Origin: Candidatus Roizmanbacteria bacterium RIFCSPLOWO2_01_FULL_35_13
Lineage (GTDB): Bacteria > Patescibacteriota > Microgenomatia > UBA1406 > GWC2-37-13
Reading direction: 5' to 3'
NCBI GenBank assembly: GCA_001789635.1
Contig: MGAF01000058.1
Coordinates: forward strand, 5,218-50,399
DNA: 45,182 nucleotides
A program made the translations under genes and the position numbers. Under the pieces are notes generated by a model. It did not search any database. It was not told the origin of the DNA and saw only the letters and a program-made list of their open reading frames with translations. Position 1 is the stretch's first letter, and every line of letters starts with the position of its first letter. Of the stretch, positions 43,910-44,895 are shown one piece after another.

Positions 43910-44000
43910 AAGTAATAAGTGTAAATGAAAGTATTGATACGATCAATAGAAATATGATCGAGTAACTATTCACAGTTCTTGACAAAGATTATAATCAATT

Positions 44001-44082
44001 GTCATTGCGAGCGGTGAGTTTTGGAGCGAAGCAATCTCATTAATGGGATTGCTTCGTCGTCGTTCCTCCTCCTCGCAATGAC
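44001..44082. repeat. TCATTGCGAGC-type palindromic repeat, copy 2
   Basis: GTCATTGCGAG (44001) pairs with CTCGCAATGAC at the right end, and GCGAAGCAATC with GATTGCTTCGTC inside. It is 82 bases long and matches the core of copy 1 (17353-17460) while the spacer differs. It lies in the 520-base stretch 43910-44429, which otherwise contains only the PaaX-like fragment and a palindrome. Confidence 0.85.
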
Positions 44083-44153
44083 ATAGTCTGGTATAGTTTT
44101 GTCGAGAAGCGTGAACTCTTACATGATCGAGAAGTTATCGACAGCTTAGGTAT

Positions 44154-44399: not shown

Positions 44400-44425
44400 A
44401 CTTCGATTAAACGTTTAATCGAAGT
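44400..44425. promoter_or_regulatory. 26-bp perfect palindrome just past the TrpR-like gene
   Basis: The half-site ACTTCGATTAAAC is followed directly by its reverse complement, starting five bases beyond the TrpR-like stop codon. It differs from the upstream palindrome (44866-44895) only by a G/A and its paired C/T. No U-tract follows, so it is not a standard terminator. It is best read as a protein-binding site or the boundary of an element. Confidence 0.7.
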
Positions 44426-44429
44426 AAGA

Positions 44430-44867
44430 TTAAATTCCTTCAGATTTTGTCCTTTCATAATCGAATTTTCTTTCCCATGCAGATTTCCAATTTATACCAT
44501 ATGTTCCAGGAGGGAAAAGTTCGTTATAAAGTCCCTGTAAAAATAGGGCAATTTTTTCATTTCTTACAAGATTTTTCAGAGCAGGAACTATTCCGTCACT
44601 TTTTTCCATTACAAAGTGAAATTTTGAAACCGTAGAACTCGATACTTTAACGACATCGCAAATTGTATAGTAATCAATTTTCTTCATTAGTAGAAATATA
44701 ATTATTATTCTTTTAGCTATCATTATTCTCTCAACCGGTGAAAGTAGTTCAATAAGTACTTTATTGAAGTCCTCTTTACTTGTTTTTTTTGCCAGCACTT
44801 CAAAAAGAAGAGTAAAAAGTTTTTCATAAACACTTTCTTTAAGACGGTATTTAGAAATCCTAGTCAT
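44430..44867 (-). CDS. TrpR/YerC-superfamily DNA-binding regulator
   Basis: The 145-residue protein contains the Trp-repressor core: LLSPVERIMIAKRIIIIFLLMKK (41-63) followed by the helix-turn-helix DYYTICDVVKVSSSTVSKFHFVME (65-88), where VSSSTVSK is the recognition-helix region. The N-terminal 40 residues form a helical dimerisation arm and the tail (115-145) is polar and aromatic. It lacks the tryptophan-binding set I would expect of TrpR, and is nearer YerC-type proteins. It is flanked on both sides by almost identical perfect palindromes, the upstream one covering its start codon, which strongly suggests autoregulation. Confidence 0.85.
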   Translation of the reverse strand: MTRISKYRLKESVYEKLFTLLFEVLAKKTSKEDFNKVLIELLSPVERIMIAKRIIIIFLLMKKIDYYTICDVVKVSSSTVSKFHFVMEKSDGIVPALKNLVRNEKIALFLQGLYNELFPPGTYGINWKSAWERKFDYERTKSEGI

Positions 44868-44895
44868 ACTTCAATTAAACGTTTAATTGAAGTAT
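44866..44895. promoter_or_regulatory. 30-bp perfect palindrome overlapping the TrpR-like start codon (operator)
   Basis: The half-site ATACTTCAATTAAAC is followed directly by its reverse complement. Bases 44866-44867 belong to the ATG of the regulator. The palindrome lies between the -10 box at 44905-44910 and the coding region, so a bound protein would block transcription, and the RNA hairpin would bury the start codon. The core ATTAAACGTTTAAT is shared with 44400-44425. Confidence 0.8.

Follow-up and report, generated by a model that had tools for sequence, protein, structure and literature searches.

A TrpR-fold protein family of Candidatus Roizmanbacteria with matching palindromes at both gene ends and scattered copies in housekeeping genes

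The locus and its TrpR-like gene

The Candidatus Roizmanbacteria (CPR) genome studied here comprises 1.45 Mb in 61 contigs, and the window, meaning the whole stretch of 45,182 nucleotides that was analyzed, ends at the end of its contig (C58). Within it, a gene for a TrpR-like protein is framed by two perfect palindromes (Table 1), the only ones longer than 16 bp in the 45 kb. The 26 bp common to both lie at 44868-44893 in the 5′ copy, ending directly 5′ of the ATG, and show 24/26 identity between the copies, with both differences (G/A and C/T) placed symmetrically. The pair of near-identical palindromes that a sequence-only reading had described around this gene is confirmed, coordinates and symmetric differences included. 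Because the longest single palindrome among 200 first-order Markov sequences of the window's composition was 26 bp, two matching palindromes of 26-30 bp that bracket one gene are not a product of chance.

Table 1. Position of the TrpR-like gene, its framing palindromes, and its predicted recognition elements in the window
Feature	Position	Strand	Remark
TrpR-fold DNA-binding protein gene	44430..44867	-	ORF, 145 aa; helical TrpR core with C-terminal helical extension
5′ operator (putative): 30-bp perfect palindrome ATACTTCAATTAAACGTTTAATTGAAGTAT	44866..44895	.	covers start codon
3′ operator (putative): 26-bp perfect palindrome ACTTCGATTAAACGTTTAATCGAAGT	44400..44425	.	first base 5 past stop codon
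Helix-turn-helix (HTH), residues 66-89	44601..44672	-	AF2 helices 66-73 and 77-89
Residue 77 codon	44637-44639	-	residue varies in step with base 4 of the palindrome half-site

About 320 bp from this unit, at 44000-44083, lies a longer compound inverted repeat (TGTCATTGCGAG ... CTCGCAATGACA). It contains an inner palindrome (CGAAGCAATC...GATTGCTTCG) and looks like a dispersed repeat of another kind.

The window protein matches the Pfam Trp_repressor family with E=7e-6 and 26.5 bits, just below the curated cut-off of 27. An AF2 model built from 23 homologs has a mean pLDDT of 82.9. In a Foldseek search of the PDB, the best 37 matches were all E. coli TrpR or TrpR-like, with probabilities up to 1.00 and TM-scores by target length of 0.65-0.80, every E-value of these lying above 0.05. 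The NCBIfam TrpR equivalog gave 14.1 bits, below its cut-off of 67.25. Because the best Foldseek matches are TrpR or TrpR-like while the equivalog score falls short, the window protein, as modeled, is of the TrpR fold (all-helical with an HTH), yet evidently not a tryptophan repressor. The fold proposed by the sequence-only reading is borne out by the AF2 model and its TrpR matches. A sequence-profile search of solved structures with the window protein returned designed helical proteins only.

To judge by their places, the invariant residues of the family belong to the TrpR core and the HTH. Motifs of a nuclease or transposase were not found, and a Y1_Tnp match is also absent. The named relatives in GTDB genomes are all from CPR and nearly all from Candidatus Roizmanbacteria. 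A search of the literature on CPR for TrpR together with palindromes gave no hits.

Matched palindromes across the family

Framing was assessed in 83 distinct homologs with flanks; a further 244 ORFs of the same loci served as controls. For each gene, a 26-mer near the 5′ end and another near the 3′ end are chosen so as to give the highest score, which combines palindromicity (ignoring the central two pairs) with mutual identity. A matching palindrome is present at both ends of 65/83 homologs and of 0/244 control ORFs (Fisher p=2e-52), the control guarding against the fact that the score was devised after the pattern was seen; the other 18/83 homologs have no clear framing. In most homologs the 5′ palindrome occupies -26 to -1 relative to the ATG and the 3′ palindrome starts within ~15 bases past the stop codon, and both window palindromes lie at these canonical places. 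A site at the far end of the gene had been called unusual; the site itself is real, but within this family it is the rule. The palindrome sequence varies widely from homolog to homolog, yet the two ends of one gene agree.

The center of the palindrome is constrained in its own way. In 130/130 framing palindromes the central dinucleotide is TA, CA, CG, or TG, that is, a pyrimidine-purine step. This is a rule at the level of DNA, and it fits a protein bound across the dyad that bends the site at a flexible step. In the TrpR consensus quoted in PMC9413887, the center is left unspecified.

Protein and palindrome vary together. Across 62 genes, the more two proteins differ, the more their half-sites tend to differ as well (Mantel r=0.36, with no permutation above 0.21). 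Among half-sites starting with ACT, Pro77 pairs with ACTA in 8/9 cases and other residues, Ser77 among them, pair mostly with ACTT (p=9e-4 for the association of residue 77 with the half-site, by a statistic that ignores phylogeny). On the tree, this residue 77/half-site pair switches repeatedly within one well-supported clade. One homolog (L196) is mixed, with an ACTT half-site at one gene end and ACTA at the other, and covariation enrichment across the whole HTH is only a trend (p=0.07). In four homologs of one small clade the palindrome reads ACTTYR-N6-YRAAGT, the pattern cacTTTAnnnnnnTAAAgtg published for operators of HisR/YerC (PMC9413887).

From the framing, the tracking of the half-site by residue 77, the central step rule, and the HisR/YerC pattern in one clade, we conclude that the framing palindromes are the probable cognate operators of their own TrpR-like proteins. 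Autoregulation through palindromic operators, a prediction from sequence comparison, is well supported. The sequence-only reading had proposed a TrpR-like protein acting on its own symmetric sites and had named covariation of palindrome and recognition helix across homologs as a check. The proposal gains from family-wide framing, recognition-helix covariation, and the subclade match to the published HisR operator; the behavior of residue 77 is in line with the check.

A remote TrpR-like gene of the window's genome (L248, G000:C15:26141-26521; 169 aa) has the GC-richer palindrome ACTACCATCCTACGTAGGATGGTAGT at both ends, in two exact copies.

Scattered copies and the overwriting of coding sequence

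The window palindrome occurs in 12 copies in its genome (G000) at ≤3 mismatches, and a reversed control pattern occurs in 0. The copies lie mostly within ORFs, where they encode TSIKRLIEV in the sole open frame; these ORFs are gatB, argS, trmD, fmt, an M20 peptidase, two methyltransferases, and a membrane glycosyltransferase. G002 holds 11 copies of the framing palindrome of its TrpR-like gene L064, 9 of them extra and mostly intergenic, and in G004 the framing palindrome of L052 recurs in trmD and elsewhere. The scattered sites of these three genomes are near-exact copies, 24-28 bp long, of a framing palindrome. G005 and G014 have a framing palindrome with few or no scattered copies. For a dozen genomes the list of sites comprises 75 inside ORFs, at 40 gene positions, and 23 intergenic ones; it favors ORFs, since protein searches supplied some of the regions. 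Of the in-ORF gene positions, 17/40 are common to more than one genome.

Some palindromes occur apart from a matching gene. No TrpR-like gene was detected in G003 at 98% completeness, though in-ORF palindromes are present, and no cognate framing palindrome was found for the in-ORF palindrome of G049 or for sites with an ACAC center in G002. The sequence-only reading had counted widespread palindromes without the gene against recognition by the protein. Such occurrence was found, but the sites are near-exact copies of framing sites at conserved positions, which widens that reading rather than refuting recognition.

A metabolic regulon was considered for the scattered sites and rejected, as Pfam searches of 30 palindrome-bearing ORFs and 10 neighbors gave no common function. 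No his gene was recognized among the gene neighbors examined or the palindrome-bearing genes.

A second palindrome family, TCTGCTTTAATCTATTAATAGATTAAAGCAGA, has about 5 copies in G000, on contigs C4, C37, C39, and C43 (L171, L172, L175, L177, L178), three of them just beyond gene 3′ ends. It is similar, not equal, to the framing palindromes of the TrpR-like gene in contig C46.

The in-ORF copies were first read as insertions resembling Rickettsia palindromic elements (RPEs), a reading ruled out by alignments without length change. The genes gatB, M20 peptidase, fmt, trmD, and one methyltransferase (MTb) have the same length in relatives that lack the palindrome, and gatB aligns gap-free at the palindrome position to solved bacterial GatB sequences (PDB homologs). 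Shared positions often hold different palindromes at identical codons in different genomes, and G003 has three palindrome types over four shared ancestral positions. Because relatives carry palindromes at the same codons with no change in length, the palindromes have overwritten coding sequence rather than interrupted it.

What is conserved at these sites is the DNA. Where the amino acid is unchanged, and in pairs whose palindromes are identical or almost so, synonymous third positions are 89% identical inside the palindrome and 49% identical over the 20 codons that flank it to either side. Between G000 and G052, members of different genera, fmt agrees at 26/26 positions inside the palindrome, against 12/24 flanking synonymous positions. 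Because of this difference between sites and flanks, the in-ORF palindromes are held by constraint on DNA, not on peptide.

A variable linker of arginyl-tRNA synthetase (argS; L022 and orthologs) is a hot spot at which unrelated short palindromes are found according to genome (CCACGGCCGTGG, CCACGTGG, TCACGATCGTGA, and the window palindrome). In the methyltransferase MTa of G003 (L082) and G020 (L095), GC-rich hairpins of the CCTGCCGGACGGGCAGG type, with a few extra residues, stand where the other genomes have the palindrome. The M20 peptidase of G000 (L021:1831-2355) has 174 aa, in comparison with ~440-450 aa in relatives; a repeat immediately 3′ of the palindrome may have disrupted it.

Proposed mechanism, alternatives, and related systems

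Each TrpR-fold protein of the family would have its own palindromic operator of ~26 bp with a pyrimidine-purine center, paired at the gene ends. A dimer or a pair of dimers most likely binds each of the two copies. The 5′ palindrome, directly against the start codon, would bring about autorepression, and the 3′ palindrome, ~440 bp away, may allow cooperative or looped binding. Protein and operators change jointly and fast, even at syntenic loci. The scattered palindromes would be additional sites of the same protein and probably have a chromosome-wide role, which is favored over a metabolic regulon because the host genes share no theme, the sites lie in ORFs, and the constraint acts on DNA. 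Taken whole, this reading of a family with its own paired operators, autorepression, and scattered copies as further sites strikes us as reasonably probable. The scattered sites may serve in chromosome organization or in regulation, or may reflect selfish spread.

Selfish spread without any host function is, in our judgment, unlikely. The palindrome would be a repeat that copies itself over similar short sequences, by conversion, single-stranded DNA annealing, or transformation, with help from the TrpR-like protein, and in-ORF copies would persist where the encoded helix is tolerated. Such copying would suit the identity of copies within a genome next to differing orthologous sites between genomes, the three palindrome types at the four ancestral positions of G003, the uniformity of the asymmetric ACAC center over the G002 sites, and the lack of a theme among host genes. 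Against it stand the absence of a nuclease or transposase motif and the TrpR-core/HTH look of the invariant residues, the lack of insertion or duplication at the sites, and the existence of one-armed intermediates; neutral spread would also not favor ORFs, in which most listed sites lie, albeit in a list biased to ORFs. It is likewise doubtful that TrpR-fold protein and palindrome propagate themselves as a pair, rewriting short coding stretches without insertion, successive versions replacing each other at the same housekeeping codons. If true, the pair would be a homing-like or chromosome-marking class of DNA, neither transposon nor operator set.

It is improbable that the protein is an ordinary local autoregulator for which only the framing palindromes matter, the in-ORF palindromes serving another DNA-binding protein. 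This would account for in-ORF palindromes where no matching TrpR-like gene exists (G003, and the ACAC type in G002) but sits badly with the scattered sites of G000, G002, and G004, near-exact copies of framing palindromes as they are.

The sequence-only reading had also offered the palindromes as the ends of a mobile unit. In its classical form, palindrome, gene, and palindrome would move as a cassette and lone palindromes would be scars, as the tight framing with little else inside the unit, the several diverged paralogs per genome, and the patchy distribution might suggest. The palindromes differ, however, between syntenic TrpR-like loci, both at the pair flanked by NUDIX and kinase genes (G000:C32 and G002:C4) and at G000:C46 and G005:C23, and the comparison shows the two framing palindromes, as putative operators, changing together with the gene. 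Where the NUDIX-kinase junction lacks the TrpR-like gene (G003, G005), no palindrome is left behind, nor is there a target duplication or footprint. A cassette leaving solo palindromes is disfavored by these loci and empty junctions. Lone palindromes, moreover, replace sequence at constant length, and no relative was found in IMG/VR. The proposal thus did not hold up and is highly improbable.

That mRNA hairpins are the functional form is barely credible, since the CA center on the sense strand of coding copies, which would suit an RNA element, is forced because the opposite strand reads TGA in frame, while the center is inverted in orientation between the two flanks in L047, L198, and L251 and always obeys a DNA step rule that a hairpin loop does not need.

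The reading of paired operators with further sites scattered over the chromosome suggests a fast-changing protein-DNA recognition system, hitherto undescribed, in tiny uncultured bacteria. Its ~60 natural pairs of protein and operator, which share one fold but change in specificity, would be data from which to read directly how TrpR-type proteins recognize DNA. CPR housekeeping ORFs carry a strong DNA-level constraint, at the same codons across genera and with changing sequence, that neither RPEs nor operators explain. If the scattered sites do organize or mark the chromosome, they would add a new architectural system to a phylum whose DNA organization is almost unstudied.

Sites of parS, Noc, MatP, and SlmA are strong palindromes of 12-16 bp, scattered in ~10 or more copies, some inside ORFs. 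The scattered palindromes described here resemble them in strength and in reaching into ORFs. The architectural proteins differ from the present family in fold, and their sites are shorter, unpaired at gene ends, and much slower in turnover.

HisR/YerC and TrpR share with the family the TrpR fold and symmetric operators with a lineage-specific consensus, and one clade here has the ACTTTA-N6-TAAAGT pattern of HisR. The 20-bp HisR/YerC operator is present in the 4 homologs noted above and absent from the window gene, whose half-sites lie 14 bp apart. Nearly half of the genomes bearing hisR have a site before that gene (PMC9413887). The family here differs from both regulators in having a site, usually of 26 bp with a 14-bp distance between half-sites, at both gene ends, in palindrome identity that varies per gene, and in many sites within ORFs; no amino-acid regulon was seen, and the sequence is far under the TrpR equivalog cut-off. 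Two features were not found described for TrpR/HisR-like autoregulators, namely cognate operators at both ends of the gene, and site turnover inside housekeeping genes.

REP/RAYT systems (REPtrons) are alike in pairing a gene family with cognate short palindromes that are also scattered genome-wide (PMC2817692, PMC3733652). RAYT is a tyrosine transposase (Y1/HUH) and REPs are extragenic, usually in >100 copies, whereas here the protein is predicted to be of the TrpR fold, no nuclease was seen, and the palindromes number ~2-12, often in ORFs.

The palindromic elements of Rickettsia and Wolbachia are likewise multi-copy palindromes read in frame within housekeeping genes (PMC2229807, PMC6649704), but they are insertions of 105-146 bp that lose their repeat identity over time. 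The palindromes here are 26 bp long, still perfect, length-neutral, swapped at the same codon, and accompanied by a gene for a putative cognate DNA-binding protein. Other repeat-like peptides in gatB (L019), fmt (L024), the methyltransferase (L025), and L026 seem to be in-frame insertions, more like the true RPE type; examples are RFRTQLRQGYDGRASQYDK in GatB and NDSGVVAPLRGTPPQNDV in L025.
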